A stretch of 34,724 nucleotides of DNA from SAR92 clade bacterium (GTDB lineage: Bacteria > Pseudomonadota > Gammaproteobacteria > Pseudomonadales > Porticoccaceae), in assembly GCA_014381985.1 (NCBI GenBank), contig JACNKP010000054.1:1-34724 (forward strand), read 5' to 3'. Every line of letters starts with the position of its first letter. Within the stretch, counting starts at the first letter, position 1. The notes beneath the pieces are model-generated. The model had not been told where the DNA came from. It saw only the letters and a program-made list of their open reading frames with translations, and made no database searches. The position numbers and the translations under genes are program-made. Positions 11,682 to 34,724 of this stretch are shown in pieces.

Positions 11682-11724
11682 AAAAATCTCTTATAAACTT
11701 GAAACAAGGTGTAGTAGAGACAAT

Positions 11725-12816: not shown

Positions 12817-12823
12817 TAAGTGA

Positions 12824-14137: not shown

Positions 14138-14330
14138 TACCATACATCCCTTAGTCATTTAGCCCTGTTATTTAGAGCCTTATAGTTAGCCTTTATAACT
14201 AGCGTAGAATCGAAAAACCTTTAGAGTCTAAACTACCTTATTTAAAAGTAAAACCAAACTAGCTAAGGGGGTTGCCGATTGGCACACCTCAGTCCCCAAG
14301 ACCTTAATTTTGAGACAGAAACACCCACTG

Positions 14331-20099: not shown

Positions 20100-20414
20100 T
20101 TAGTTAATCCAAATGCCATTGGTGACCTGGCAATCGATAGAATCCAAAACCATATGGATCATCAAACCAACACCCACTAAACGGGTTTTTGGTAAAAAAC
20201 AAAGCGCAATGTAAAGAGCGATAAACCAGGGCTGATGCAACGGATGAAATCCGATACTGCAACGACTGGCATCATAAATGGGAATGGCTAACAGGTGATC
20301 AAGATCAACCAACATAGTAGCCATCATCACCAGATAGGCGAACTGCCAGCGGGGTCGAAAGAACAGCGCTGCGATCAAAGCGGGAACAATAAAGTGTAAA
20401 CTTAAATGGAACAT
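20100..20414 (-). CDS. DUF6122 small membrane protein
   Basis: The 104-residue protein has three to four hydrophobic helices and conserved polar residues: DLDHLLA near 37-43, RCSIGFHPLH near 51-60, and IHMVLDSIDC near the end. His/Asp motifs of this spacing recall membrane-bound metal-dependent hydrolases of the YdjM type, and the sequence matches DUF6122. Its ATG overlaps the stop of the aminotransferase gene (TAATG), so translation is coupled. Function is unknown. Confidence 0.75.
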   Translation of the reverse strand: MFHLSLHFIVPALIAALFFRPRWQFAYLVMMATMLVDLDHLLAIPIYDASRCSIGFHPLHQPWFIALYIALCFLPKTRLVGVGLMIHMVLDSIDCQVTNGIWIN

Positions 20415-21829
20415 TAAAACCCAGTCACGCCGCTCGGAATGGCTGGGTAGTCACCCACCAGCGGTGCGCCACTTTCCACCGCCTGTATTGCTGCTTCGAT
20501 GATATCTAAGGCTTCAATAAACACGTTTTTGTCCATATTCAGGGCTGGATACATTCGCACTGTGGGCTCGGTGTCGCAAATAGCCCACACGCCGTTAATG
20601 AGCATTTCGTTACGTACTGTGCGGCCAACAAAGCTATCGTCATAGTCATCACCAAACTGCGCTTTATCTGGATGGGTAAATGAGATACCCATTAATAAAC
20701 CTAAGCAGCGGACATCACTGACAATGGCATACTTTTCAGGCCAATCGGCCATACGTTGCTCAGCGATGGCGGCAAGATCTGCGGCGTGGTCTATGACATT
20801 ATCGCGTTGGAAAATCTCCAGTGTTTTTAGACCAGCAGCACACCCAGCAGGCGTGCCGGCAAAGGTACTTCCCGCACTGGCTCGGGGGTTATCACCCAAG
20901 ACCTCGTCTCGCGCGGCAACCCCCGCACAGGGTTCCACACCCCCGGACAGGTTCTTACCAAACACCATCATGTCGGGTATGACATCATAGTGGTCAATAC
21001 CCCACATGCGACCCGTGCGACCAAGACCTGTAAGAACTTCATCAACAATCATCAGCCAGTCATGTTTATCGCAAATGCGCCGAATACCCTGAATAAAGTC
21101 TGGCGAGGGAATCCAGTTACCGCCTTCAGCCAGACCTGGCTCCACGATAATAGCGGCGATATTGTTTGCAGGAACAATATATTCAGGGATATGACTCTCT
21201 AAATACCACAGACAATAGTTAACGTATTGTTCTGGGGACATATCAGCAGGGATATTTTGTGAGTAAGGGTAAGGCGCCTTAATCACTGCTCCACTCCAGG
21301 GCTCCATGTACAAATTATGTTCGCTGGTGTAACCGCTAATGACCTTTGTGCCCATACCTGCGCCATGAAAAGAGGAGGTAAAACTAATAATATGGCGACG
21401 TTTTTTGTAGCAGAGCGCAGTGTGCACTGCCGACTCTACCGCCTCGGTACCAGAGACTTCAAAAGTGAGCCGCGGTAGCTGCTTACCCGGCATGATGTCG
21501 GCAAGTTTTTCTGCCAACTCAAAGCGCAGTGGATGTTCCCAGTGGTAACCATACCGCTGGTGGGCATCGTGTACCGCCTCTAACACCTCAGGATGACAAT
21601 TGCCCAGAGGGTTGGTAGCCCAACCATTTTGAAAGTCGATGTAGCTGTTGCCGTCAAGGTCCCAGACATAATCACCCTTGGCCCTATCAAGAATAATTTG
21701 TGCTGGTGGAATAAAGCCTTTAGCCGCAGACTTTTTTGCCTCGGCTTGGTAGGTTAGTCCATGACGGAAGAGTTTTTTACCTGACTCCAGTCTTTCAGCC
21801 GTTTTAGGTCCGGGTAAGGTGTAAGTCAT
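20414..21829 (-). CDS. Class III (PLP) omega-aminotransferase
   Basis: The 471-residue fold type I aminotransferase has the class III pattern: DLDGNSYIDFQNGWATNPLG near the N-terminus, FEVSGTEAVESAV, the PLP-holding IIVEPGLAEGG and IVDEVLTGLGRTG, and the Schiff-base lysine in MVFGKNLSGGVEP. It probably moves an omega-amino group (GABA, putrescine, taurine-like or beta-alanine type) to a keto acid. A TTG at 21832 is directly followed by ATG 21829, which is chosen; AGGAT lies ten bases upstream. It lies behind the first PuuB-like oxidase and in front of DUF6122. The real amine substrate is not determined. Confidence 0.88.
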   Translation of the reverse strand: MTYTLPGPKTAERLESGKKLFRHGLTYQAEAKKSAAKGFIPPAQIILDRAKGDYVWDLDGNSYIDFQNGWATNPLGNCHPEVLEAVHDAHQRYGYHWEHPLRFELAEKLADIMPGKQLPRLTFEVSGTEAVESAVHTALCYKKRRHIISFTSSFHGAGMGTKVISGYTSEHNLYMEPWSGAVIKAPYPYSQNIPADMSPEQYVNYCLWYLESHIPEYIVPANNIAAIIVEPGLAEGGNWIPSPDFIQGIRRICDKHDWLMIVDEVLTGLGRTGRMWGIDHYDVIPDMMVFGKNLSGGVEPCAGVAARDEVLGDNPRASAGSTFAGTPAGCAAGLKTLEIFQRDNVIDHAADLAAIAEQRMADWPEKYAIVSDVRCLGLLMGISFTHPDKAQFGDDYDDSFVGRTVRNEMLINGVWAICDTEPTVRMYPALNMDKNVFIEALDIIEAAIQAVESGAPLVGDYPAIPSGVTGF

Positions 21830-21899
21830 CAATAATTCATCCTGTTAATTATCTATGATAGTTGGCTGACCATGCACAATAAAAATGTTGGGGTCAATA

Positions 21900-23183
21900 T
21901 TAGAGTAAATCACGCATTTTGTAATAGAGCATACCAAGGGCAACCATGTTGCTGCCAAATTTCCTACCCAAGGGAATTTTCTGGTGTTTAATATTGGCAA
22001 AGATATCCATGCGTTCAAAGGTGCCCGAGACTGCATCGGCCATTATCTCACCGGCTAGATGGGTCATATTGACACCATGGCCTGAATAGCCAATTGAATA
22101 AAACACATTTTTACTGCTCCGCCCAAGCATGGGCACGCGATTTAACACGATACCGATATTGCCCCCCCACTGATAATCAATACGTTTGTTCGCTAATTGA
22201 GGGAATATTTTGGTCATACGGGGAAAAATACTGTCTTTTATATTCGTAGGCACTCGACCTGAATAATTGCAACGCCCGCCAAAAAGCATGCGCCGATCGG
22301 CAGATAATCGATAGTAGTTAAGCACCTCGTTCATATCACAAATAGCCATATCGAGGGGGTTTATGTCCGCCACCTCCCTGTCGGTCAATGGTTCTGTGGC
22401 AATGATGTAAGTCCCCGCCGGAAACACCTTGCCCGATAATGTTTTATTTTCAAGTTGGGTATAGGCATTGCCCGCCAATACAACAAAATCAGCAGTGACT
22501 TTACCCTGATCACTGATTACTTGGGGTTTGTCACCATGGGTGATACCCGTAACATGACTATTTTCAAAAAACTGTACACCCAGCTCAGCCGCTGCCCTGC
22601 CCTCACCAAGACATAAGTTTAGGGGATGCAAGTGACCATTGCGATTATTGATAAGACCACCCTTGTATGCGTCAGTCCCCAGTACTTCGCGCATTTCATG
22701 GCTGCTTATTCTGCGCAGGTGATCTGCCATACCATAGTCATTGAGCTCTGCCTGCCACTCATCGAGTGTCTGTAGATGGCGATTTTTAAACGCAACATCC
22801 ATGTAACCGTATTTGAGGTCACAGTCTATATTATAGCGCTTGATGCGTTGCTCGATAATTTCATGGCCACGATAGCCCATCTGGAATAGGTCTTTTGCGA
22901 TTCCTTCGCCATAGTGCTTGAGTATCGCAGCTTCACCTCCGCCAATACCGCCGATCATCTGACCGCCATTGCGACCAGAGGCACCCCACCCGATACAGTT
23001 TTGCTCTACAACCGCAACCTTATAACCGCGTTCAGCTAAGGTTAGTGCGGTAGCAACACCAGTAAAACCACCACCAACGACGCAAACATCAACGCGAACA
23101 TCGCCTTGCAATACCGGAAATGCAACGGTCTGGTTGGTGGTTGCAGCGTAATAGGAGGGACAATGTAATTCTGAACCAGGCAT
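21900..23183 (-). CDS. PuuB-like FAD amine oxidase, copy 1
   Basis: The 427-residue D-amino-acid-oxidase-fold flavoenzyme has the FAD-binding VCVVGGGFTGVATAL and the family strings IGWGASGRNGGQ, RIKRYNIDCDL, HLHPLNLCLGEG, YYRLSADRRMLFGG and YSGHGVNMTHLAG. These line up closely with E. coli PuuB (gamma-glutamylputrescine oxidase). ATG 23183 is preferred over the long start at 23237, because the usual N-terminus (CPSYYAAT) follows at once and GAGAA lies upstream. It would oxidise a secondary or glutamylated amine to an aldehyde with H2O2. It is the first gene of a four-gene minus-strand operon, divergent from the TetR-GNAT regulator. A close paralogue lies at 27538-28821. Confidence 0.9.
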   Translation of the reverse strand: MPGSELHCPSYYAATTNQTVAFPVLQGDVRVDVCVVGGGFTGVATALTLAERGYKVAVVEQNCIGWGASGRNGGQMIGGIGGGEAAILKHYGEGIAKDLFQMGYRGHEIIEQRIKRYNIDCDLKYGYMDVAFKNRHLQTLDEWQAELNDYGMADHLRRISSHEMREVLGTDAYKGGLINNRNGHLHPLNLCLGEGRAAAELGVQFFENSHVTGITHGDKPQVISDQGKVTADFVVLAGNAYTQLENKTLSGKVFPAGTYIIATEPLTDREVADINPLDMAICDMNEVLNYYRLSADRRMLFGGRCNYSGRVPTNIKDSIFPRMTKIFPQLANKRIDYQWGGNIGIVLNRVPMLGRSSKNVFYSIGYSGHGVNMTHLAGEIMADAVSGTFERMDIFANIKHQKIPLGRKFGSNMVALGMLYYKMRDLL

Positions 23184-23235
23184 AGAGTTCTCACTAAAAA
23201 TACAATAACTGTTGCTAATAAACTCTCTAAACAAC

Positions 23236-23261
23236 ACTATACAGGCATATAGGCAATTAAA
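23236..23261. promoter_or_regulatory. Candidate operator between the oxidase and TetR-GNAT genes
   Basis: The stretch holds a perfect inverted repeat, CTATA-N6-TATAG (23237-23252), overlapping GCATATAGGCAATTAAA (23245-23261). The latter recurs with 15 of 17 matches at 30181-30197 before the Rieske operon. It lies just upstream of a TATAAT (23268-23273) that could be the -10 of the regulator gene, and over ACTATA, which read on the minus strand (TATAGT) could be the -10 of the oxidase gene. Confidence 0.65.
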
Positions 23262-23267
23262 CAGACG

Positions 23268-23273
23268 TATAAT
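23268..23273 (+). promoter_or_regulatory. Likely -10 box of the TetR-GNAT gene
   Basis: A perfect TATAAT lies 40 bases before the ATG. No good -35 hexamer is at 16-18 bases; the expected position is covered by the candidate operator. This fits a weak, self-repressed promoter. Confidence 0.55.
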
Positions 23274-23312
23274 ATCGCGGCAGTAAGAGCGTAATAATTA
23301 GAGTACAAATCA

Positions 23313-24416
23313 ATGCCAATAACTAACCCGGCTATTCATCAAGAACGCCGTAAGCTCCTCATCGATGCTACGATCACCGCCATTGCTGAATTCGGTCTTT
23401 CAAAATTGACCTTAGCAAAAATCAGCTCTATTGCAGGTCTCACAGCTGGAACGGTTAACTTTCATTTTGACAGTAAAGAGTCCTTACTGCTGGAAACACT
23501 TAACTTTGTTTCCGAAGAATTTGATCACAGCATTGCCAAAGCCCTTAAAAATGCTGGCCCTGAACCTGCCAAGCGTCTGGCCGCCATTATGGATGCCTCT
23601 TTAGACCCTGATATTACTGAACACCGAAAAATGGCCGTGTGGCACGCCTTCGATTCAGAAAGCCGAGGTAGAGAAGACTATCAGCTTATACGCGGCAATC
23701 TAGATCAGCAAAATTTCAAGCTCATTCTCGGTCTCTGTGAAGATATCATTAACAGTGCGGACAAACAGATAGAGATCAACGCTCGGGCGATTGCCAATGC
23801 GATATCTGGGCTTACCGATGAGATGTGGAGCGAAATACTGTTTGCTGGAGAGGGTTACGATCGTGATGATGCCCGCCATATATGCAGTAGCTTTCTGGCC
23901 AGCATTTTCCCTTGGTGTTATGACATGCCGACCCCTAGGCCAAATAGAAACACCAAGGATACCCAGACAGTTATCAATGTCACCAGAGCCTCTTTGGAAG
24001 ACGCCGATAAAGCCAGTGTGTTATTTGATCTTTACCGGCGATTTTATGGCGAGGAACCAGACCTCACTTTGGCTAAGCAGTATATTGTGGATCGGCTAAA
24101 CACTAACACATCAGTGATCTTTATCGCTTGGGATACAGACAGTCAAGCCTTGGGGTTCACTCAGCTCTACCCGACATTCTGCAGCGTCGATGCGACACCT
24201 ATTGTCGTTCTGTATGATCTTTATGTAGACAGTAGTGCCAGACAAATGGGTATTGGTAAAGCACTTATGAATCACGCTATGGCCTACGCCAAGGAAACTG
24301 GTGCCTCACGCATTGACCTTGAAACGGCGATAGATAATATCCAGGCTCAGTCACTCTATGAGTCTTTAGGCTATGTGCGCGATACCAGCTTCTATAAATA
24401 CTCTTTAACACTATAA
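23313..24416 (+). CDS. BetI/TetR-type repressor fused to GNAT acetyltransferase
   Basis: The 367-residue protein has two domains. Residues 8-200 are a TetR-family repressor: helix-turn-helix at about 31-55 (KLTLAKISSIAGLTAGTVNF, then HFDSKESLL) and a C-terminal ligand domain most like BetI. Residues 220-367 are a GNAT N-acetyltransferase: acetyl-CoA motif R310-Q-M-G313-I-G315 after LYVDSSA, then NIQAQSLYESLGY. BetI-type repressors release DNA on binding small cationic or quaternary ligands. GNAT enzymes acetylate amines, polyamines included. The fusion may let the regulator sense, or acetylate and remove, the pathway amine. It is divergent from oxidase 1 and ends 19 bases before the agmatinase gene on the opposite strand. 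There is no stop or frameshift between the two halves, so it looks like one intended chain. Confidence 0.92.
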   Translation: MPITNPAIHQERRKLLIDATITAIAEFGLSKLTLAKISSIAGLTAGTVNFHFDSKESLLLETLNFVSEEFDHSIAKALKNAGPEPAKRLAAIMDASLDPDITEHRKMAVWHAFDSESRGREDYQLIRGNLDQQNFKLILGLCEDIINSADKQIEINARAIANAISGLTDEMWSEILFAGEGYDRDDARHICSSFLASIFPWCYDMPTPRPNRNTKDTQTVINVTRASLEDADKASVLFDLYRRFYGEEPDLTLAKQYIVDRLNTNTSVIFIAWDTDSQALGFTQLYPTFCSVDATPIVVLYDLYVDSSARQMGIGKALMNHAMAYAKETGASRIDLETAIDNIQAQSLYESLGYVRDTSFYKYSLTL

Positions 24417-24435: not shown

Positions 24436-25362
24436 TTAGTCTACTTGAGAAGCCATCACATAAAGAATCTCTAGACCAATGGTCGCAGCTGCCAAGGCGG
24501 TAATTTCAGCATGGTCATAAGATGGCGCGACCTCTACAACATCAGCACCAACAATATTCAAACCCTGCAAACCACGAATTATCTTTAGAGCCCGGTCGGT
24601 AGTGATACCTCCCACTACCGGTGTGCCCGTTCCTGGGGCATAGGCAGGGTCAAGACAGTCAATATCAAAAGTAAGATAGACAGGCATACTGCCGACACGC
24701 CGTTTGATGGCAGCAACCACATCGGCACTCGACAAATCATTAGCGGCAGCTGCATCTACAACCTCAAATAGATGGCTTTGGGTATCGTATTCAGTACGAA
24801 TCCCCACCTGAATCGAGTGATCGGGATCAATAAGTCCCTCTTTGGGTGCGTGATAGAACATGCAGCCATGATCATAATTCTCCGCCCCGTCATCTTCTGG
24901 TGTGTAGGTGTCGGTATGGGCGTCAAAATGCACCAACGCCACAGGCCCATGATGCTGATGCGCCGCTCTTAACAGAGGTAGAGTGACGAAATGGTCGCCA
25001 CCAAAGCACAATGCCTTTTTACCCTTGGCGTGAACCGCTCCCACATGCTCAATAACGGTTTCAATCATAGAGTTTGATTCGCTGGGTTTGAACTCTAAAT
25101 CGCCATAGTCAATAACCTTGAGTCTGTCCATAACGCTAAATTGCCAGGGCCAGCGTTTTTCTTCCCAACGAAGATTTCCTGATGCCAACCGCACACCTTG
25201 TGGGCCGTGTCGTGTCCCAGCACGGCCAGTGGTGCCAATATCGTAGGGAATACCCATGACCACCACATCGGCAGACTCTACGTTGCGTGATAGTGGCAAA
25301 CCCATATAGCTGTATACATTGGCAAACATGGAATAGCTGTTGGGAACATCTTTATTAGCCAT
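24436..25362 (-). CDS. speB: Agmatinase (SpeB-type ureohydrolase)
   Basis: The 308-residue arginase-fold enzyme is collinear with E. coli SpeB. Manganese ligands are in FGGDHFVTLP, HFDAHTDTY and FDIDCLDPAYAPGTGTP. It would hydrolyse agmatine to putrescine and urea; related guanidinobutyrase or guanidinopropionase activity cannot be ruled out. ATG 25362 has AGGGG seven bases upstream. It is the last gene of the Rieske operon, 52 bases behind the aminotransferase gene. Its place beside Puu-type genes argues for feeding putrescine, or a guanidino analogue, into the cluster. Confidence 0.92.
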   Translation of the reverse strand: MANKDVPNSYSMFANVYSYMGLPLSRNVESADVVVMGIPYDIGTTGRAGTRHGPQGVRLASGNLRWEEKRWPWQFSVMDRLKVIDYGDLEFKPSESNSMIETVIEHVGAVHAKGKKALCFGGDHFVTLPLLRAAHQHHGPVALVHFDAHTDTYTPEDDGAENYDHGCMFYHAPKEGLIDPDHSIQVGIRTEYDTQSHLFEVVDAAAANDLSSADVVAAIKRRVGSMPVYLTFDIDCLDPAYAPGTGTPVVGGITTDRALKIIRGLQGLNIVGADVVEVAPSYDHAEITALAAATIGLEILYVMASQVD

Positions 25363-25414
25363 TTCAAACCCCTACTTTACTGCTGACCTTAGTCATAACA
25401 GTGATTATTTTGTT

Positions 25415-26800
25415 TTAGTCTACCCAGATACCCTGGTCGCGTAAATCAGTTAAGGTTAACTCAAGCCCATGGCGCAGTATCGAAACCAACTCGTCAACCT
25501 GCTCACGAGAGATAATCAGCGGCGGAGATATAATACAGATATTGATGAAAGGCCTAACTAGCAAGCCTAATGTTTGGCAGTGTTGGTCTACCATTTCACC
25601 AATGGCATAATCTTTTTCAAGCAAATCTTCCTCGTTGTGCCCCTCAATCGTCATTTCCACTGCGGCCATCAACCCCTCGCCTCGCACATTTCCGACCAAG
25701 GGAATGTCCAACAAGGACCTCAACTGTTCTTGAAAATAAGGCCCTATTTCTAAGACTCTGTCGAGCAACTTTTCTTTTTCAATAATATCCCAGCTGGCCA
25801 GCGCCGCAGCACAGGCAACGGGACTACCACCCCAAGTATAGCCATTAGAGTAAAGGCAATCCTCAGTATTTTCACCACTGAAGCTAGCCAGGAAGGACTC
25901 TGACACTGCATAGCCTCCCATGGGGATATAGCCAGAGGTGACGCCTTTGGCAAAGATAATAATGTCCGGCACGATACCAAACACTTTTTCTGAAGAAAAC
26001 CAGTGCCCAAGACGGCCGAAAGCGGTCACTACCTCATCAGCGATATAGGTAATCTCATGTTTTTTGACCATCTGCCAACAGCGATAGTTGTAGTCAGTTG
26101 GGGGTACGATAACACCGCCGCTGGCCAAAATCGGTTCGGCGATAAAGCACATAATGTTCTCTGGCCCCAACTCGAGAATCTTTTGCTCTAATTCATCCAC
26201 TAAAAAATCGCAAAACTCCGCCTCGGTGGAAAATTCAGGATGGTAAAAATGGCAGGGTGCGGAGAGAAAATGAATGCCATCACGCATAATATCCATAGCG
26301 GTTTTATCCCGCTCTTTACCCGTTATAGATGCAGATAAGTATGTGCTGCCATGGTAGGCTTTTTCACGAGTTAGTATATGTTTGCGATGGGGCTGACCCT
26401 TTATATTACTGGCCAATTGGCATAGTCTCAGGGCTGAATCGACTGCCGTGGAGCCACCTGTAGTGAAATAAATGCGATTTAGATCCCCTGGAGTCTTTGC
26501 GGCTATGCGCTCGGCTAATTCGACCTCACGGTTGTTAATCACCGTAAAAGAGGTGGCATAGCTCAAGGTCATAATTTGCTGGGACACTGCATCGGCAATT
26601 TCACGGCGACCATAACCTGTCTGCATACACCACATGCCGGCTGGCCCATCTAACAGCCTATTGCCCTCCGCATCATAGATGTAGACGCCCTCGCCTTTGA
26701 CAATCACCGAACTAGAATCATCATCTCCCAGAGTAGAAAGATCACCCCAGGGATGCAACAGGTGTTGGTTGTACTTGTCTCTATAACCTTCACTTTTCAC
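25415..26800 (-). CDS. Class III aminotransferase, SpuC-like (polyamine-pyruvate type)
   Basis: The 461-residue PLP enzyme opens with LHPWGDLSTLG and GEGVYIYDAEGNRLLDG-AGMWC, as in SpuC and other polyamine-pyruvate or omega-amino acid-pyruvate transaminases. It also has FTTGGSTAVDSALRL, the PLP region CFIAEPILASGG and YIADEVVTAFGRLG, and the Schiff-base lysine in IIFAKGVTSGY. The start is GTG 26800 with AAGG eight bases upstream; no ATG fits. It lies 18 bases behind the amidotransferase gene. It probably transaminates putrescine, cadaverine or a derived aminoaldehyde or amino acid. It is only distantly related to the aminotransferase at 20414. Confidence 0.88.
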   Translation of the reverse strand: MKSEGYRDKYNQHLLHPWGDLSTLGDDDSSSVIVKGEGVYIYDAEGNRLLDGPAGMWCMQTGYGRREIADAVSQQIMTLSYATSFTVINNREVELAERIAAKTPGDLNRIYFTTGGSTAVDSALRLCQLASNIKGQPHRKHILTREKAYHGSTYLSASITGKERDKTAMDIMRDGIHFLSAPCHFYHPEFSTEAEFCDFLVDELEQKILELGPENIMCFIAEPILASGGVIVPPTDYNYRCWQMVKKHEITYIADEVVTAFGRLGHWFSSEKVFGIVPDIIIFAKGVTSGYIPMGGYAVSESFLASFSGENTEDCLYSNGYTWGGSPVACAAALASWDIIEKEKLLDRVLEIGPYFQEQLRSLLDIPLVGNVRGEGLMAAVEMTIEGHNEEDLLEKDYAIGEMVDQHCQTLGLLVRPFINICIISPPLIISREQVDELVSILRHGLELTLTDLRDQGIWVD

Positions 26801-26818
26801 AGTATTTGCCTTGTTGTT

Positions 26819-27532
26819 TTACAGGGATAACCTCGATGTCCAACGTTGATAGAGTCGCTCCGCAACCTGATTTAAGGCTGCGACATTGGGCACCAGAGAC
26901 TCTTTGATTTGCTCATGATTCTGTGTGCTGGGCGTTGTATCTCTCAAATGATCTTGCCACTTTGTAATCCAATCCAATACAAGAGGCTCAGTCATCTCAA
27001 CATGTCCTTGCATAGCCAGCACATTATCACCATAACTATAGGCTTGGTTGTGGCAGTGCTTAGATGAAAATAAAAGCTGTGCCTCCGCCGGTAACGCAAA
27101 GGTCTCTAAATGCCAATGAAACATGATAAAAGGATCTTCAATATTACCCAACCAATCGTCTGCTGAAGCGCTATTTTGCCTATGGCAGTAGTGCCAACCC
27201 ACCTCTTCTACTAAGTTGGCAGTTACCTCATAACCCAAGGCCTTCGTGATTAGCTGTCCACCCAAGCAGTGGCCAAGTAACGGCACATTGCTATAAAGGG
27301 CCTGCTGAATTAGCTGAATTTCTTGATTAATCCAAGGAATATCATCATTGACGCTCATGACGCCCCCCATAAACACCAACCCCGCCATCGATTCGTCTAA
27401 TGCGGGTATGGGGTCACCCTGATAACCGCGAACAATTCGGTAGGGGATATTTTTTTTCTGGAGGTGATCGGCAATATACCCAGGATGCTCGTCATTCATA
27501 TGTAAGAATATCAGCACCTGTTTAGTCATCAT
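26819..27532 (-). CDS. Class I glutamine amidotransferase-type hydrolase
   Basis: The 237-residue protein has the class I GATase triad: nucleophile C89 in LLGHCLGGQL, H177 and E179 in QGHVEMT. Such stand-alone GATases (GuaA-like) hydrolyse gamma-glutamyl amides. Here, between a PuuB-like oxidase (5-base gap) and a transaminase, it is a good candidate for the hydrolase that removes the gamma-glutamyl group, the role of PuuD in E. coli. PuuD belongs to another branch of the superfamily, so this would be a functional analogue. The role is inferred from context. Confidence 0.82.
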   Translation of the reverse strand: MMTKQVLIFLHMNDEHPGYIADHLQKKNIPYRIVRGYQGDPIPALDESMAGLVFMGGVMSVNDDIPWINQEIQLIQQALYSNVPLLGHCLGGQLITKALGYEVTANLVEEVGWHYCHRQNSASADDWLGNIEDPFIMFHWHLETFALPAEAQLLFSSKHCHNQAYSYGDNVLAMQGHVEMTEPLVLDWITKWQDHLRDTTPSTQNHEQIKESLVPNVAALNQVAERLYQRWTSRLSL

Positions 27533-27537
27533 GGGGA

Positions 27538-28821
27538 TTATAACGCATCTCGTATTTTATAAAACATCATACCCGCAGCCATAGCGGGTCTGCGTAGTAA
27601 TTTACCGCCCGGCCAAGGTAGGTGGAACATTTTGTTCATAATATCAAAACGGTGAGTATTGCCATCAACCGCCTCAGCAAGTAGGCGCCCGGTCATGTGC
27701 GTAGGAGCAACGCCATGCCCCGAATATCCACTAGCGTAGAGAATATTACTATTTTTAATGCGCCCAATTTGCGGCATACGACGCACGCTGATGCCCATTC
27801 TTCCGGACCAGCTATAGTCAATTTTAACATTCTTCAGCGATGGAAATACCTTGGCCATCTTGTTCCGCATAACAGCCTCGGCATTAGCAGGTTCCAGTCC
27901 TGTATAGTTGGATAAACCACCAAATAAAAGCCTTTTGTCTGCTGACAACCGGTAATAGTCTAATGCTGTCCTGGAGTCACACACAGCAACATCTCGAACC
28001 ATCGTTTGCTGTAACTGCTCATCTGAAAGCGGTTCGGTACCAATAATACAGCTAGTCGCTGGCAGCACTCGGGCATCTAAGTATGGTACTAATTTACCCA
28101 TGTAGGCATTTCCGCACAAAATAACATGGCCTGCTTTTACGCTACCTTTTTGGGTGGTCACAACAGGGTTATCACCATAGGTAATGTTGGTCACTTGAGA
28201 ATTCTCAAAGATATTAGCGCCGAGCGACTGAGCAACCTTAGCCTCACCAATACATAAATTAAGGGGTTGAATATGCCCCCAATCTTCGCGGTAGTACCCG
28301 CCCAAATAGAGTTCAGAATTAACGTATTCTTTAATTTGATCTTGGTCTAACAGGCGCATGGCCGGATCGTCTTCAGCCCATTGTTGGTATGATTTTAGAT
28401 GACGTTTTTTTAAACCGACCTCGCAGTAACCCCATTTAAGATCGCAGTCGATGTTGTATTTTTCAATTCGTTGTTTAATGATATCAACGCACTCGACACC
28501 CATACCCTCTACGATATCAACACCCTCACTACCGATGGTCGAGCGAAAGGCCCCAGGGTTCTGCCCATACCCACCTATAATCTGCCCTCCATTGCGACCG
28601 CTGGCTCCCCAACCGATGCGATTTGACTCGAGGAGAACAACTTTATAACCACGCTCACTAAGCTCCACCGCTGTAGCAACACCGCTAAAGCCACCGCCGA
28701 CAATGGCAACATCCGCTTCTATTGCCCCCTCAAGCTCGGGGTAATCAGTTTGCCAGTTGGCAGTCGCCGCATAATAGGAGGGTGCGTGTTGTTTTGTGTC
28801 GGTATTGAATTTTAAAAACAT
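27538..28821 (-). CDS. PuuB-like FAD amine oxidase, copy 2
   Basis: The 427-residue flavoprotein is of the same subfamily and same length as the oxidase at 21900-23183. It shares SYYAATANWQTDYP, the FAD motif VAIVGGGFSGVATAV, IGWGASGRNGGQIIGG, HIQPLNLCIGEA, YYRLSADKRLLFGG and YASGYSGHGVAPTHMTG. It would oxidise a glutamylated or N-alkylated amine. It lies 23 bases behind the Rieske oxygenase and 5 bases before the amidotransferase. The two copies sit in separate operons that share the same candidate operator, which suggests different substrates or successive steps. Confidence 0.9.
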   Translation of the reverse strand: MFLKFNTDTKQHAPSYYAATANWQTDYPELEGAIEADVAIVGGGFSGVATAVELSERGYKVVLLESNRIGWGASGRNGGQIIGGYGQNPGAFRSTIGSEGVDIVEGMGVECVDIIKQRIEKYNIDCDLKWGYCEVGLKKRHLKSYQQWAEDDPAMRLLDQDQIKEYVNSELYLGGYYREDWGHIQPLNLCIGEAKVAQSLGANIFENSQVTNITYGDNPVVTTQKGSVKAGHVILCGNAYMGKLVPYLDARVLPATSCIIGTEPLSDEQLQQTMVRDVAVCDSRTALDYYRLSADKRLLFGGLSNYTGLEPANAEAVMRNKMAKVFPSLKNVKIDYSWSGRMGISVRRMPQIGRIKNSNILYASGYSGHGVAPTHMTGRLLAEAVDGNTHRFDIMNKMFHLPWPGGKLLRRPAMAAGMMFYKIRDAL

Positions 28822-28844
28822 AAATAGAGGCTCGTGTCTAAGGC

Positions 28845-30104
28845 TTACGCCTTCAATCCAGCAATGGCGGTGAGATACCAGCTGATAAACTCCATGAGGG
28901 TGGACTCATATTCAGGGTGGTAGGGTCCCGGCTCAAAGAACTGAGAATTCACTCCCTCGCTATTACGCGTAATAATGTATTCATCCTCTAGGCTGGTGTG
29001 ATGCCAAAGCCATGCGACTTTTTCTTTGTCGTAATCAACGCCTTCCTGTGCATCACCATTAACATACCAAACCAACTCCATATCTGTTTCGGTAATACTT
29101 CTTGGAATAAACCGGTACAGCACGCAATGATCAGGGTAATTGAGCATAAAGGTGAGCGGACCCATCTGGAAATCACCAGCCCCACCATCAAAGCCTTTCA
29201 TATGCCCCATTAATGGCGCAACTGGCTGACCATCTTTGCTCCCCGTTTTATAGCCTTCATAAAGGGCATAACGGCTGTGATACGAACAGGCGCCAAAGGC
29301 AGCGGCGTCGTTATAGTAACCATAGTATTCTGCGGCTATACCAGGCACGCCAGTCATCTCTGCAGCTCTAGCCCACATAGCCTCGTTAATCGGCTTTACC
29401 TTCTCAAAGGGAGCCTCAAGAGTATGTAGCTTGGCGTATTGACGGTGAGAACTAGCACAGTGATAGCACTCAAGGTAGTTTTCTAAAACGAGCTTCCAAT
29501 TGGCATGGATACGATAGGTCTTGCGCTCTGCGACCTTGGCATTTTCAAGATCATATGCACCCAACTGGGTCGTAATCTTTTCCAGTGGCGCCACAAAATC
29601 AGGAGCATCGGGGTCGCAGTTAATAAATATCATCCCCTGAAAAACCACAAAGCGTACTGGCTTTAAAGAATAGTCATCGCAATTAAAACCCTCTCGATGA
29701 TCCATATCTCGGGCCGACTTTAGCTTGCCATCATTGCCGTAGGCCCAACCATGATAAGGGCAAATAAAGGCTTTGCGGTTACCACTTGGTTCTTCACACA
29801 CTCGGGCTCCACGGTGCCTGCAAATATTGTGCATGACACAAATATCACCCTTATTATCACGACTAATGATGATCGAATCTTCACCAATATCGAATAAGAA
29901 ATAGTCGCCAGTTTTGGCAACCTGACTAATATGACCCGCATAAAGCCAGCTTTTGAAGACAATGTTTTCTAGTTCGGCTTGATAGGTAACATGTGAACGA
30001 TAGAAATAAGGATCTATAGCAAACCCTGGCTTGCCCAGTTGAGCGCTCGCCTTGTCGGTCATTTTTTCTCTAGTATCAGAAACATCAGTAGCGATAAATT
30101 TCAT
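28845..30104 (-). CDS. Rieske oxygenase alpha subunit (GbcA/CntA-like)
   Basis: The 419-residue ring-hydroxylating-type oxygenase has the Rieske 2Fe-2S ligands C95-R-H97 and C115-x2-H118 (ICPYHGWAYG). The catalytic iron motif is E212-x2-H215-x4-H220 in LECYHCASSH. The bridging position holds Glu (E212) instead of the Asp of aromatic dioxygenases, as in carnitine oxygenase CntA. Together with overall similarity to glycine betaine monooxygenase GbcA, this favours a quaternary or N-methylated amine as substrate. No reductase (GbcB/CntB) lies in the window. ATG 30104 is used; ATG 30062 is a possible shorter start. It heads the minus-strand operon that ends with the agmatinase, behind the candidate operator at 30181. 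Confidence 0.88.
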   Translation of the reverse strand: MKFIATDVSDTREKMTDKASAQLGKPGFAIDPYFYRSHVTYQAELENIVFKSWLYAGHISQVAKTGDYFLFDIGEDSIIISRDNKGDICVMHNICRHRGARVCEEPSGNRKAFICPYHGWAYGNDGKLKSARDMDHREGFNCDDYSLKPVRFVVFQGMIFINCDPDAPDFVAPLEKITTQLGAYDLENAKVAERKTYRIHANWKLVLENYLECYHCASSHRQYAKLHTLEAPFEKVKPINEAMWARAAEMTGVPGIAAEYYGYYNDAAAFGACSYHSRYALYEGYKTGSKDGQPVAPLMGHMKGFDGGAGDFQMGPLTFMLNYPDHCVLYRFIPRSITETDMELVWYVNGDAQEGVDYDKEKVAWLWHHTSLEDEYIITRNSEGVNSQFFEPGPYHPEYESTLMEFISWYLTAIAGLKA

Positions 30105-30155
30105 ATCAATACAGCCTAAAATATTACTCTAACAGGGATTTTACAGTGCTTATGC

Positions 30156-30210
30156 AACTATACAACAACTAACTAAATGAGCATATAGTTAATTAAATGA
30201 TTGTTTAATT
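30156..30210. promoter_or_regulatory. Candidate operator upstream of the Rieske operon
   Basis: GCATATAGTTAATTAAA (30181-30197) matches 23245-23261 at 15 of 17 positions. It overlaps a further palindrome, AATTAAA-TGATTG-TTTAATT (30191-30210), and is flanked by ACTATACA (30157-30164), also present near the first site. On the minus strand a TTGTAT, 16-base spacer, TAAAAT promoter can be read about 20 bases downstream. Confidence 0.65.
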
Positions 30211-30246
30211 TATCGTTTAGCATCCTGGGCCATCCCACCAACGAGA

Positions 30247-31626
30247 TCACATGGAGCGCAGATACCAGTCATAGTCTATGTTCGACACCTGCCCGGCGAA
30301 CTGCTCGCACTCTCCGCGACGAATCGTACCAAACAGGCGACAACAATCTTCACCCAAATATTGAGGTAGCACGGCGCTGCTATCAAACTCATCCAGCGCC
30401 AACGACCAGACTTTTGGTAGAGTAATCTCCGCTTCTAGATCAAGCCCTTCCGGCACCATCTCGCCAGGATCGCAACCCTGACTAATACCATGATGTACCC
30501 CAGCAACGAGAGCCGCCATGACAAGGTAGGGGTTGGCGTCAGCTCCTGCAAGTCTATGCTCAACCCGACGATCTTGATCGCCGGATACCGGAATCCGCAG
30601 CGCCACATCGCGGTGGTTATAGCCCCAACTGGGCGTTAACGGGACATAATCACCCGAAACAAGACGTCGATAGGAATTAGCATTAGGCGCGAATATAGCC
30701 ATAGCATCAGCCATGGTTTCGGCCAAACCACCAATGGCATGGCGCAGTGTGTCGGAAATCGCCGGCACCTCAGATGAGTCTGAGTCAGCAAAAACATTTG
30801 CACCATCGCTATCATATAAGCTGAAATGGACGTGTAATCCGCTACCTGGGATATCCGTAAAAGGCTTGGCCATAAAGGTTGCCGCCATACCGTGCTGTCG
30901 AGCCACCCCTTTGACAATACGCTTGAGGAGCACTGCGTGATCACAGGCAGAGACTGGATCAGCTACATGACCTAAATTAATTTCAAATTGACCCGGCGAA
31001 AACTCTGAATGCACCGTGGTCATGGGCACATTCTGAATCTCACAGGCTCTACGCACTTCTTCAAGAAAATCATCGTTGTCCCAAAGATCCTCAGGCATTG
31101 CATACTGCGTACCCGACTGATCAACATTAGTGCCTGGGACCTTAGCCAAAAGCGGCTCTGGCACGGCAGAGTCGCCACTCTTAATTAAATAAAATTCTAA
31201 CTCTGTAGCAACAACCGGTTTTAACCCCATCGCCTGTAAAGGCTCAAGTGCTTTAATCAGCATGTTTCGACAATCAAACAATGCCGGAGTGCCATCCAGT
31301 TCAGTGAAGGTAGCCAATACCTGAGCCGTATCAGATTTTAACCAGGTAATGGGCGCCAAGGTATGAGCGATGGGATGAATTAATTTATCTGGATCACCCT
31401 CTACATTGGCAAAGTCGACCTCGCTGCAAAACTCACCGCGCACATTCAGCAAGATAGTCGACGCCGGACCCTTAACGCCTTCGCGAAAAAAGGTTACAAA
31501 CTCGCTAGCCGGAATACGCTTGCAACGAATAATGCCGTTCAAGTCCGGCATCAAAATCTCCAGCATTGTGATCTCTGGGTGTTGCTTGGTGAATTGTTCT
31601 AGCTCTGACTCTACCGCAATATCCAT
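30247..31626 (-). CDS. Gamma-glutamylpolyamine synthetase (PuuA-like, GS family)
   Basis: The 459-residue member of the glutamine synthetase superfamily resembles PuuA more than GlnA. It has ILMPDLNGIIRCKRIP at the N-terminus, metal-binding ELEFYL, EFSPGQFEINL, FMAKPFTDIPGSGLHVHFSL, NSYRRLVSGDYVP and EHRLAGADANPYL. It would join glutamate to an amine (putrescine, ethanolamine or another) using ATP. ATG 31626 has AGGA nine bases before it. It lies 31 bases behind the NDP-forming acyl-CoA synthetase gene. The 142 bases after it hold the candidate operator of the next operon. Confidence 0.92.
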   Translation of the reverse strand: MDIAVESELEQFTKQHPEITMLEILMPDLNGIIRCKRIPASEFVTFFREGVKGPASTILLNVRGEFCSEVDFANVEGDPDKLIHPIAHTLAPITWLKSDTAQVLATFTELDGTPALFDCRNMLIKALEPLQAMGLKPVVATELEFYLIKSGDSAVPEPLLAKVPGTNVDQSGTQYAMPEDLWDNDDFLEEVRRACEIQNVPMTTVHSEFSPGQFEINLGHVADPVSACDHAVLLKRIVKGVARQHGMAATFMAKPFTDIPGSGLHVHFSLYDSDGANVFADSDSSEVPAISDTLRHAIGGLAETMADAMAIFAPNANSYRRLVSGDYVPLTPSWGYNHRDVALRIPVSGDQDRRVEHRLAGADANPYLVMAALVAGVHHGISQGCDPGEMVPEGLDLEAEITLPKVWSLALDEFDSSAVLPQYLGEDCCRLFGTIRRGECEQFAGQVSNIDYDWYLRSM

Positions 31627-31657
31627 TATGATTGTCCTGGCTTATAGCCATTTAGTC

Positions 31658-33742
31658 TTACTCTATTAACACCATCAAGGCATCCAAACCAACGCATCCA
31701 TCAACACTTAATTTTATTGGATTAATATCCACTTCCGATACTGTATCAGCCAAGATCAGAGCGATCTCAGATAATCTAGCAGCTGCCTCGCAGTAACTGC
31801 CAACATCTACTTTTGGTGCACCACGGACGCCCGCTAAAATCTCTGCCATCGACAGTCTTTGTAGCGCCCTTTTTACCGTAGCTGAATCAAATGGCGGCAT
31901 CAGCACCGCAATATCACCGAGCACCTCAGCGTAAATACCGCCAAAACCAACCACCACCGTGGGCCCAAACTGACTGTCTCGACTGACACCTAAAATCATT
32001 TCAACACCGTTTGACTGCACCATGGGAGCAATCATTGCCTGAGGGCCAAGTCTCTTTGCCATATCACTATAAGCAGCAAGTAGCTGCGCTTCGTCTAAGA
32101 TGTTTAAATTCACCCCACCGACATCAGACTTGTGCTCTATCCCAGGCTGAGCAGTTTTGAGTACCAACGGAAATCCTGTTGCCGCAGCCGCAGACTTTAA
32201 TTCATTCTGACTACCCACCAGCACACTCTGCAACATGGGCAGCCCTAAGTCTGCAAGACATTGACTGGCTAAGGTTTCTGACACCTTAGTTTCACCACCT
32301 AAACGCTCGCGCCAATAATCGCACTTATCCTGATCAACGCCTATAACTTGCATCGGCTCTCGTTGCTGAGAGTCTCGATAATTCATTAGACAACGAGCAC
32401 CAACCAAAAATTGACTGACGCCGTCAATCACGGGAAATCCCTGATGGGTAGACGTGATAGCCAATTCATCGGCACCACTACCTTGCCTGTTGGCCACGAG
32501 AAAAACCGGCTTTTCTGTGGCTCTCTGAGCTTGATGTAAGTAGGCCATATAAGATGAATAGACTTCACTACTAGGTCCTCGATCATGAACTACCGCGCCT
32601 AAGGCCGCGTTCTGATCATTTAGAATGGCGGTAAAACAAGCTGCCATCTTTTCGGGAGCATGAGGACCGCCAGCACCCCAAGCGTCCAGAGGATTAACCG
32701 CGGGTAACCCCGGATCTAACAATCCCTCAAGGCTGGTAACCGTTGGATCACTAAGCTGGGCCAGCGGTACGTCAGCACTATCAGCTAAGTCAATCAACAA
32801 TTGTCGCTCACCACCAGAATCGTGAAGACAAACAAGACCTCCCTCACTGACCACCTTGGGTTGAGCAAACATTATTAATGTCGTCGCCAATTGATCCATG
32901 TCTGCGACGCGCTGCACGCCATACTGATCGAACAGTGCGCTATAGCATTGATCACTACCTGCCAAGGCACCAGAATGAGAGATGGCCAGTTCAGCGGCCA
33001 AATCAGTGCGCCCCACCTTGAGTACAACGATGGGAATGTTGAGTTGATTGGCTTTCTTGAATGCTTGTATAAGCTTCTCCGGGTAGCGACTAGTTTCTAA
33101 AAACAAGCCTACAACTCGGGTTTCTGGAAGATCTAAGGCGTAGTCTAAATAATCCTCCATCGCTACGGTCAACTCATAACCACTAGACACCGCAAAATTG
33201 AATTGGATGCGTTGCTCACAATCGACAATGCCCGACATACCAGCGCCAGACTGACTTATTAAGGCAACATTACCGGGATAGGGGTGATCTCGAGTATCAA
33301 AACCACCCGCGAGCACACGATCGCGAACGTTATAAAAACCCATTCCGTTGGCACCTGCAATGAACAGGCCCGCTGACTGCGCTTTGATGGCAATGCGTTG
33401 CTTTAAATTTGGGGTACTATCATCAGAGAGGATTAACGCAGAAAAAATAGTACAAGCAGGAATCCCTAAGGCAATGACATCGTCCAGCGCGGCCTCAATA
33501 CGTTGGTCACTAATGGCAAAGATAACCTGATCGGGGCGCTCTGGAAGATCAGCTAAATTAGGATAACAAGGTATATCTTCAACCGTGGCATAACTCGGAT
33601 TAACCGCGTAAATTTCACCTTGGAAACCACCCCTGCGCAAATTAACAATGACCTCATTGCCGACGGTGCCACTCTTTTGAGACGCACCCAGCACCGCAAT
33701 CGACGTAGGGTTTAAAAGCGGTTGTAGCCGATGAGTCGTCAT
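31658..33742 (-). CDS. NDP-forming acyl-CoA synthetase (acetate-CoA ligase, ADP-forming type)
   Basis: The 694-residue single-chain enzyme has a CoA-binding domain (about 8-105, SIAVLGASQKSGTVGNEV), flavodoxin-like succinyl-CoA ligase domains (about 145-440) with the phospho-histidine in AISHSGALAGSD, and a C-terminal ATP-grasp region (about 480-690, FPLVLKTAQPG, HKSDVGGV, VVVGFGGIYAEV, DINPI). It would convert an acyl-CoA plus ADP and phosphate to acid and ATP, or the reverse. The ATG follows the stop of the GcvT-like gene directly (TAAATG). It suggests the pathway yields, or must activate, a carboxylic acid. Confidence 0.9.
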   Translation of the reverse strand: MTTHRLQPLLNPTSIAVLGASQKSGTVGNEVIVNLRRGGFQGEIYAVNPSYATVEDIPCYPNLADLPERPDQVIFAISDQRIEAALDDVIALGIPACTIFSALILSDDSTPNLKQRIAIKAQSAGLFIAGANGMGFYNVRDRVLAGGFDTRDHPYPGNVALISQSGAGMSGIVDCEQRIQFNFAVSSGYELTVAMEDYLDYALDLPETRVVGLFLETSRYPEKLIQAFKKANQLNIPIVVLKVGRTDLAAELAISHSGALAGSDQCYSALFDQYGVQRVADMDQLATTLIMFAQPKVVSEGGLVCLHDSGGERQLLIDLADSADVPLAQLSDPTVTSLEGLLDPGLPAVNPLDAWGAGGPHAPEKMAACFTAILNDQNAALGAVVHDRGPSSEVYSSYMAYLHQAQRATEKPVFLVANRQGSGADELAITSTHQGFPVIDGVSQFLVGARCLMNYRDSQQREPMQVIGVDQDKCDYWRERLGGETKVSETLASQCLADLGLPMLQSVLVGSQNELKSAAAATGFPLVLKTAQPGIEHKSDVGGVNLNILDEAQLLAAYSDMAKRLGPQAMIAPMVQSNGVEMILGVSRDSQFGPTVVVGFGGIYAEVLGDIAVLMPPFDSATVKRALQRLSMAEILAGVRGAPKVDVGSYCEAAARLSEIALILADTVSEVDINPIKLSVDGCVGLDALMVLIE

Positions 33743-34724
33743 TTAGAAGTCCGGTGCGGGGGTCTGCCTCTTGCGTGGTGGATTAAATACGGCACCCTCG
33801 ATGACGGTGCATTTAGCCATCACTCGAGTCCACTTTAATTCACGCTCATAGTAGATTTCAGCCACTAACTCTTGACCGACCTTACCATATTTGGCTTCCA
33901 CCTGAGCAAAAGCGACATTGGTTTTTGCTGTTGGGCACCAAGCCGCTGAAGTAACAGTGCCCACTGCTTTATCGCCAGAATAGATAAAGGCATGTTCCGC
34001 CGGCTTATTACCATCAACATCAAGATAAACAAAGGCATAGCGAGACCCCTCTTTCTTTTCTTTAAGGAGAGCTTTACGGCCATTAAATACCGGTTTATCA
34101 AAAGATACCAGCCACCCCAAGCCCAACTCAAAGGGCGAGCGCGATCGACCTGTGCGGATCGATTCTTCAGCTGGAATGAAGTCTACCCCTGCTTGAACAA
34201 AGCCTGCTTCGGTACGCAGCATATCTAGCGCATAGCCGCCAATTGGCCGAATCTCGCGGTGCTTTCCCGCTTCAAATAACTGATCCCAAAAGGTTTCTGC
34301 CAACGCAGGCTCAACCCAAATTTCATAACCTAAATCACCGGTAAATCCAGTACGGCTAATCATGACTTCTGACCCTTCAAAGGGAAAGCGAGTCAGACCA
34401 AAAGGCTTGAGATTTTCGATACCTTCAAAACCCATATTTTTGAAAATAGCGCTGGACGTAGGTCCCTGAACAGCAAGGGCCGCCACTTCAGCCGTTTCAT
34501 CAACAATGGTCACATCAAAACCTTCGGCTGACCACATCAACCAGTCAAGACAACGAGCATAAGCACACAGGCGGTAATCATTTTCAGCGAGATGAAAAAA
34601 AGGGCCATCATCCATAACCTGGCCATTATCGTCCCACCAAACGGGGTAAGCCACACGACCCACACCAATCTCTCCGACATACCTTGTTACCAGACGGCAG
34701 GGGGAGGTACCGCCGTCCCGACCC
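33743..34724 (-). CDS. GcvT-like folate-dependent aminomethyltransferase (5' end missing)
   Basis: The frame is open to the right edge of the window. The visible 327 residues begin mid-protein (GRDGGTSPCRLVTRYVGEIG), so the true start lies outside, and the GTG at 34663 is not the start. Family signs are PVWWDDNGQVMDDGP, ALAVQGPTS, SRTGFTGDLGYEIWV, LDMLRTEAGF and GRKALL, as in GcvT, sarcosine/dimethylglycine dehydrogenase C-termini and the DMSP demethylase DmdA. The enzyme would pass a one-carbon group from an N-methyl (or S-methyl) substrate to tetrahydrofolate. It directly precedes the acyl-CoA synthetase gene and probably belongs to the same transcript. Confidence 0.87.
   Translation of the reverse strand, partial: GRDGGTSPCRLVTRYVGEIGVGRVAYPVWWDDNGQVMDDGPFFHLAENDYRLCAYARCLDWLMWSAEGFDVTIVDETAEVAALAVQGPTSSAIFKNMGFEGIENLKPFGLTRFPFEGSEVMISRTGFTGDLGYEIWVEPALAETFWDQLFEAGKHREIRPIGGYALDMLRTEAGFVQAGVDFIPAEESIRTGRSRSPFELGLGWLVSFDKPVFNGRKALLKEKKEGSRYAFVYLDVDGNKPAEHAFIYSGDKAVGTVTSAAWCPTAKTNVAFAQVEAKYGKVGQELVAEIYYERELKWTRVMAKCTVIEGAVFNPPRKRQTPAPDF

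Follow-up and report, generated by a model that had tools for sequence, protein, structure and literature searches.

A conserved gene island of the SAR92 clade that joins a PuuA-like ligase, a Rieske oxygenase and a GcvT-like transferase, possibly for the catabolism of N-methylated amines

Gene content and extent of the island

We examined a 34,724-nucleotide stretch of DNA from a SAR92 clade bacterium (assembly GCA_014381985.1, contig JACNKP010000054.1), here referred to as the window, which makes up the entire contig C12. The genome comprises 2.5 Mb, and its nearest named relatives belong to the SAR92 clade and Porticoccaceae. An earlier note, made from the letters alone, had described an eight-gene island in which parts resembling the Puu pathway of Escherichia coli stand beside a Rieske oxygenase and a GcvT-like methyltransferase. 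Profile-library scans (Pfam and NCBIfam), which covered 22 of the 32 window open reading frames (ORFs) of at least 100 amino acids, agreed with this description: the minus strand carries all eight ORFs at 24436–34723, in the order and with the families named (Table 1).

The island is cut inside gcvT by the window end, where the GcvT frame runs off the contig. A second contig of the same genome, C42, ends with PotI-PotH-PotG-PotF-ACAD-TetR (a polyamine-type importer, an acyl-CoA dehydrogenase and a regulator) read one way and CrtO1-CrtO2-GcvT read the other way. CrtO1 and CrtO2, encoded before gcvT, are two FAD proteins that resemble CrtO and phytoene desaturases, while the GcvT part on C42 comprises the first 126 residues of a protein that is 393 amino acids long in a congener with the full-length gene. 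In the congener G023, moreover, the genes from PotI through GATase are continuous. Thus, we conclude that a single island spans both contigs; the last 178 bases of C42 and the window end match at 88.8%. Its full order is PotFGHI-ACAD-TetR / CrtO1-CrtO2-GcvT-ACD-GS-Rieske-DAO1-GATase-AT1-AGM / TetR-GNAT / (DAO2) AT2. It is therefore larger than eight genes, with PotFGHI, ACAD, TetR, CrtO1 and CrtO2 outside the window and TetR-GNAT, DAO2 and AT2 (20414–24416) inside it. The joining of Puu-like, Rieske and GcvT genes that the earlier note had claimed is real and conserved, as detailed below, but the note had missed CrtO1 and CrtO2, the importer and ACAD.

Table 1 Genes of the island located in the window
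Feature	Coordinates	Strand	Family evidence and remarks
gcvT-like gene, 5′ part missing at contig end	33743..34723	-	PF01571 131.7 bits; folate-binding transferase, third triad member
ACD, NDP-forming acyl-CoA synthetase, 694 aa	31658..33742	-	ATP-grasp_5, Succ_CoA_lig, CoA_binding_2
GS, PuuA-like gamma-glutamyl amine ligase, 459 aa	30247..31626	-	E. coli PuuA 37.5%
Rieske oxygenase with Group V features, 419 aa	28845..30104	-	Rieske and Ring_hydroxyl_A domains
DAO1, PuuB-like FAD amine oxidase, 427 aa	27538..28821	-	DAO 231.5 bits
Class-I glutamine amidotransferase-type protein (GATase), 237 aa	26819..27532	-	PF00117 51 bits
AT1, class-III aminotransferase, 461 aa	25415..26800	-	NCBIfam PRK07036 636/618 bits
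Agmatinase (AGM), 308 aa	24436..25362	-	NCBIfam PRK02190 429/302, TIGR01230 273/174 bits
TetR (BetI-type C-terminus) fused to GNAT acetyltransferase, 367 aa	23313..24416	+	TetR_N, TetR_C_6, Acetyltransf_1
DAO2, second PuuB-like FAD oxidase, 445 aa	21900..23237	-	E. coli PuuB 42%; variable among congeners
AT2, second class-III aminotransferase, 472 aa	20414..21832	-	PF00202 298 bits

Conservation of the island and of its parts

We searched 94 genomes including that of the window, 49 of the others being congeners, some of them incomplete. Full-length GS orthologues (73–92% identity) were present in 13 of the 49 and two fragments in a 14th (G032), while GS was undetected in the remaining 35. The order GcvT-ACD-GS-Rieske-DAO1 was kept in each of the 13 congeners that were laid out (G032 excluded), and is therefore more than chance. 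GATase accompanied it in 12, AT1 in 11 and agmatinase in 8 of them, the missing cases of AT1 and agmatinase being stretches that ended first.

Outside the genus, GcvT was searched in 293 genomes of the order, with matches in 16, including the window's own, and 15 stretches from 13 of the 15 others (all except G169 and G218) were laid out. CrtO1, CrtO2 and GcvT, referred to here as the triad, occurred together in all 15 stretches, a Rieske of at least 50% identity in nine and Pot genes in four. One of these genomes, G124, belongs to another family and has TetR, PotFGHI, AT2 and agmatinase facing CrtO1-CrtO2-GcvT-GS-Rieske-AT1, with AT2 adjoining both PotFGHI and agmatinase.

A second set, the named loci, comprises the best 80 of 568 relatives from a scan with the Rieske alignment, so that the Rieske is present by construction; the counts of CrtO1, CrtO2, GcvT and DAO1 refer to at least 40% identity, and the counts are not independent, many loci coming from one clade and some being the congeners above. 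CrtO1 was found in 49, CrtO2 in 52, GcvT in 57 and all three in 47 of the 80, and every CrtO1 copy in these 47 triad loci (49 in total) directly adjoins CrtO2 and GcvT, with the three genes on one strand. Full flanks were available for 42 loci, of which 28 had the triad and nine had Pot genes. GS was present in 24 loci and directly preceded the Rieske in all of them; DAO1, in 18, was always accompanied by GS, and GATase was in 17, 16 of them with DAO1. The TetR-GNAT fusion, which is conserved along with the island, was seen in 16 of the 80 and a PuuC-like gene in four.

The third set was chosen independently of the Rieske, by a CrtO1 search of 398 genomes of the phylum (E 1e-150; 20 kb stretches), and consisted of 10 genomes besides the window's own, from four families, with seven in one family. 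All 10 stretches had the triad and a TetR related to that of the island (36–45%), eight had at least one Pot-type component, seven a class-III aminotransferase and two an ACD. The Rieske was found in three, of distantly related types that best match those of Shinella or Fuscovulum. Annotated plasmids of Shinella, Parasedimentitalea and Fuscovulum have the same kit, including Rieske-family genes with 30–42% identity to the island's. Therefore, the tightest bond is that of the triad with TetR, a polyamine-type importer and an aminotransferase, while the Rieske, frequent in Gammaproteobacteria, is separable. Synteny, the absence of which elsewhere the earlier note had considered fatal to its proposal, is thus wide, both within the genus and across families. 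Close to the triad, Parasedimentitalea carries GNAT as a separate gene.

One Roseobacter locus (L165, 7884–14094) resembles the island in its polyamine-type importer genes (PotHIG), followed by a Rieske (47%) and an AT1-like aminotransferase (49%), but has an OYE-family flavoprotein and an MTTB-family protein, which we take to be demethylase parallels, in place of CrtO1-CrtO2-GcvT, and its TetR is only 26% identical to the island's.

The Rieske oxygenase and the CrtO1-CrtO2-GcvT triad

The best PDB chains for the Rieske were 3vca and 4qup (235 bits), which are presumably structures of Stc2, compared with 121 bits for CntA. The label 'CntA-like', used in the earlier note, was dropped on account of this nearly twofold difference, and 'GbcA-like' did not hold either, as the score against the NCBIfam GbcA equivalog (269 of a 670-bit cut-off) was below threshold. 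What stood were the Group V features. Residues E212, C213 and C216, invariant in all 12 aligned sequences, correspond to the bridging Glu and the Cys-X-X-Cys beside the mononuclear iron site of the Group V (quaternary-ammonium) oxygenases; the Glu is described for CntA and the Cys-X-X-Cys for CntA and Stc2, as unique to some Group V members (PMC10952381). The island Rieske has these features, beside the iron His, in common with Stc2 (stachydrine), CntA (carnitine) and GbcA (glycine betaine), but differs from the Group V systems in that it falls under the GbcA cut-off, has no reductase gene nearby, and is linked to an aminotransferase and a gamma-glutamyl ligase. The ferric-reductase-like and NqrF proteins of the same genome were considered as partners and rejected, since they do not resemble a Rieske partner. 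In the Pseudomonadales locus L145, a gene for a DrmD-like SNF2 helicase (11250–14786; DISARM-type model, 357 of 610 bits) directly follows the Rieske gene.

In GcvT, the Asp at the position of E. coli D97, which we take to be catalytic, is present in 52 of 52 relatives and in the full-length congener protein. Dimethylglycine dehydrogenase/oxidase and the C-terminus of trimethylamine N-oxide (TMAO) demethylase, both among the PDB matches of the island GcvT, likewise have a GcvT domain with the conserved Asp. However, unlike in these known flavin and GcvT N-demethylases, the flavin partners in the island are two separate CrtO/phytoene-desaturase-like proteins, and the fused N-terminal domain of TMAO demethylase is absent: the full-length congener GcvT scored 263 of 1100 bits against that equivalog, and over model positions 384–760 of 763 only. 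A fold search with CrtO1 did not separate desaturase from amine oxidase. We infer that CrtO1, CrtO2 and GcvT would form one enzyme. A second, more distant CrtO1-CrtO2-GcvT triad was seen in several genomes (L112, 17184–21242; L080, 5791–10176; L093, 5122–9510), and in G155 it adjoins the gene of an AraC-type QhpR-like regulator.

The gamma-glutamylation module, the importer and the regulators

The PuuA-like and PuuB-like assignments of the earlier note held up. GS aligned to E. coli PuuA with 37.5% identity over 456 amino acids (300 bits), compared with 98.6 bits for GlnA. Two of its substrate-site positions, the roles of which we assume from GlnA, are changed as in E. coli PuuA: D50 to Pro (in the window and 22 of 23 relatives) and E327 to Tyr or Phe (Tyr in the window; changed there and in 23 of 23). 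The metal and glutamate residues are nearly all kept, E212 in 22 of 23. In the tree, the island GS formed its own clade beside PuuA with a support of 98/100, under a warning of long branches from the tool. DAO1 and DAO2 showed 41% (336 bits) and 42% identity to E. coli PuuB, each over 423 amino acids; DAO2 is variable, being present in L040, while in L032 TetR-GNAT and AT2 lie too close together to accommodate it.

The amidotransferase assignment was only partly right. The protein, with the sequences GHCLGG and GHVE, belongs to the class-I GATase family, but a PuuD identity was rejected because it and E. coli PuuD did not match at E 1e-3; it is a candidate gamma-glutamyl hydrolase that may replace PuuD. 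Compared with the E. coli Puu pathway (PuuABCDE, via gamma-glutamyl-putrescine), the island thus has in common a PuuA-like ligase with both substitutions, PuuB-like oxidases and class-III aminotransferases. It differs in the type of its GATase and in that no PuuC or PuuD was found in the window and 20 kb of C42, and it adds the Rieske, GcvT, CrtO1/CrtO2, ACD/ACAD and agmatinase. The last, as previously named, passed two NCBIfam cut-offs (TIGR01230 equivalog, 272.7 vs 174.3 bits) and matched the PDB chains 7lol and 7lba (Agmatinase) with 380 bits. The PDB matches of AT1 were 3i5t (473 bits) and 6gwi, a putrescine aminotransferase (335 bits).

In PotF of the window genome, the proximal/aromatic site residues W37, D39, W244 and D247 are kept, with exceptions among relatives in L166 (D39 and D247 changed) and in L171 and L174 (W244 to Tyr). 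The distal/aromatic residues of the E. coli protein (A182, E185, F276 and L348) are replaced by S182, D185, W276 and T348; the congener G023 has S185 and D182, while E185 is retained in L146, L171 and L174. We do not use the loss of the distal site as a strong argument, since the changes differ between relatives and F276W is also common elsewhere, being found in one-third of the PotF sequences covered by a published survey (PMC8666671). To judge from these residues, the distal site appears reshaped, and we claim nothing further for it. Both regulators, TetR on C42 and TetR-GNAT, best matched BetI models, below the cut-offs.

Proposed catabolic route and its alternatives

Gene content, order, linkage, conservation and family residues are thus established. 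Judged by sequence, each protein comes from a known family, and none of the systems that we compared has the same combination. The island possibly represents a new variant of amine catabolism, with what may be a new demethylase at its heart. We infer the substrate and the order of steps as follows. The island would serve the catabolism of an imported cation bearing N-methyl groups as well as a primary amine. The likeliest such cation is an N-methylated di- or polyamine, and to this reading we give a probability of just under one half (about 0.48). PotFGHI would import the cation under the control of a BetI-like TetR. The Group V-type Rieske may then take off a methyl group (or split a C-N bond) at a quaternary nitrogen, further N-methyl groups would be oxidised by CrtO1/CrtO2, and GcvT would pass the carbon to tetrahydrofolate. 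The free amine would be capped with glutamate by the PuuA-like ligase and opened to an aldehyde by a PuuB-like oxidase, after which a GATase-type hydrolase could remove the glutamate. AT1 and AT2 would transaminate the remainder, with agmatinase feeding in agmatine, and ACD would presumably join the resulting acid to CoA for the acyl-CoA dehydrogenase to continue.

We favour this reading because of the synteny in the 13 congeners and across families, the genes on C42 and the contiguous triad, and because the CrtO1-picked genomes keep the triad together with TetR, a Pot-type component and an aminotransferase. The Group V residues of the Rieske, the PuuA-like changes of GS and its position directly before the Rieske also argue for it, as do the restriction of DAO1 to loci with GS, the conserved Asp97 of GcvT, the occurrence of ACD and ACAD together in 14 named loci, and the pairing in L165 of a related Rieske with Pot components, OYE, MTTB and an AT1-like aminotransferase. 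The earlier note had left the substrate as an N-methylated polyamine, guanidine or betaine; of these, the polyamine branch agrees best with the importer and with the residues of the ligase, ahead of guanidine or a simple betaine, without being proved.

Several observations weigh against this reading. A reductase-like ORF that could serve the Rieske was found only in L156 among the 80 named loci (BLAST, four queries), and none of the four FAD_binding_6 proteins in the bacterium's own genome is a canonical GbcB (at most 97 of 500 bits). Six of the 15 GcvT-picked stretches were without a Rieske of at least 50% identity, no Rieske was found in seven of the 10 CrtO1-picked 20 kb stretches, the Rieske stood without the triad in 14 of the 42 full-flank named loci, and Pot genes occurred in only 15 of the 80. 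PotF scored 346 of 636 bits. With a mean pLDDT of 67, the predicted model of CrtO1 is weak; the folds closest to it are those of carotenoid desaturases, followed by amine oxidases. GS has Y179 as in GlnA, where PuuA has Val, and its 215 of 650 bits in the GGputSyn model count against a PuuA-type assignment. Two PuuC queries and E. coli PuuD gave no hit by tblastn at 1e-3 in the window and the 20 kb of C42, and no GATase match was found in the SAR92 isolate H231 (G018, locus L099).

The best-surviving alternative, which we nevertheless consider unlikely, is an onium amino acid or a betaine as the substrate (e.g. gamma-butyrobetaine, beta-alanine betaine, trimethyl-lysine or another diamino-acid betaine), which the Rieske and the triad would demethylate, with ACD and ACAD processing the betainyl-CoA. 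The best PDB chain for ACD, 7cm9 (240 bits), is a dimethylsulfoniopropionate (DMSP) lyase, which we take to be DddX. ACD has the phospho-His loop (SHSGALAG, H256) as in DddX, and by plain number offset its Trp355 falls at Trp391, which like Phe435 is a cation-pi residue of DddX; Trp355 is conserved in all 15 of the other full-length ACDs from islands and in two of three from outside. According to PMC8163506, DddX forms the CoA ester of DMSP, an onium acid. The top models of ACAD, acryloyl-CoA reductase (172 of 640 bits) and crotonobetainyl-CoA dehydrogenase (167 of 540 bits), both below cut-off, and the BetI-like regulators point the same way. On the other hand, the PuuA/PuuB-like module, agmatinase, the two class-III aminotransferases and the PotFGHI-type importer point to amines, and ACD occurs in only 17 of the 80 named loci, in two of them as a short ORF. 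ACAD was found in 15 of the 80; the three ACD loci without it are one short contig (L100) and the two with the short ACD ORF. ACD also differs from DddX in that ACAD stands alongside in 14 of the 17 loci, the score is 240 bits only, and the catalytic Glu432 of DddX is not securely placed: a nearby Glu393 is not conserved, with Leu, Gln and Ala in L107, L113 and L119, respectively. A DddX-like lyase activity is doubtful for this reason. On a marine Paracoccaceae plasmid (L179, 27156–30451), an ACD (40%) is directly followed by an acyl-CoA dehydrogenase, and genes of the PuuC-like, CrtO1-like and OYE types lie within 25 kb.

It is less probable still that agmatine/putrescine breakdown, betaine demethylation and an acyl-CoA route are separate pathways, two or three in number, that lie side by side under shared control with no common substrate. 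The modules do vary independently, with minimal CrtO1-CrtO2-GcvT-Rieske loci lacking GS, AT1 and AGM matches (L123, L125 and L145), and the Rieske loci without the triad mentioned above agree with such a view. However, where GS precedes the Rieske it does so within one co-directional run, and Alphaproteobacteria in which no GS was found still have a Pot-type importer alongside the triad. Ordinary polyamine/agmatine catabolism, in which the Rieske hydroxylates an amine and GcvT belongs to housekeeping C1 metabolism, would suit the agmatinase and the PuuA/PuuB-like parts, which are close to known enzymes, but appears very improbable, as the Rieske carries Group V residues and the genome holds further GcvT-family genes (one on contig C52 with 283 bits), so that the housekeeping role need not fall to the island copy.

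Returning to the N-methylated amine, a bolder and doubtful extension is that the triad is a new multi-subunit N-demethylase of diverse Pseudomonadota, with two phytoene-desaturase-like flavoproteins feeding a folate transferase, and that in SAR92, with the Rieske and the Puu-like module, it would provide the first pathway for the breakdown of N-methylated polyamines, e.g. those of diatom silica. Diatom polyamines would be a likely N-methylated source. We did not find a description of the pathway in an open-access library, which omits most subscription papers; there is none in passages of PMC12478193, and the main text of a SAR92 DMSP paper on H231 (PMC10746254) contains neither 'betaine' nor 'polyamine'. 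Methylated amines are described as important among the dissolved organic nitrogen compounds of the sea (PMC13390433), and SAR92 as an abundant coastal group (PMC10746254). The island is a concrete, testable gene set that is largely present in the isolate H231, for a substrate class whose bacterial breakdown was likewise not found in that library, and it brings the widely conserved triad to notice.

Other genes of the window

Outside the island, an ORF at 8597–10462 encodes a carboxyltransferase (mmdA-like, 255 of 999 bits) with a biotin carrier domain fused at its N-terminus, and slightly overlaps an ORF for an OlsE-like fatty acid hydroxylase (10431–11681). The ORF at 14331–16511, for a dipeptidyl peptidase of Dpp7-like type (416 of 1200 bits), lies beside that of a hydrolase (12824–14158) that weakly matches models of class C beta-lactamases and esterases.

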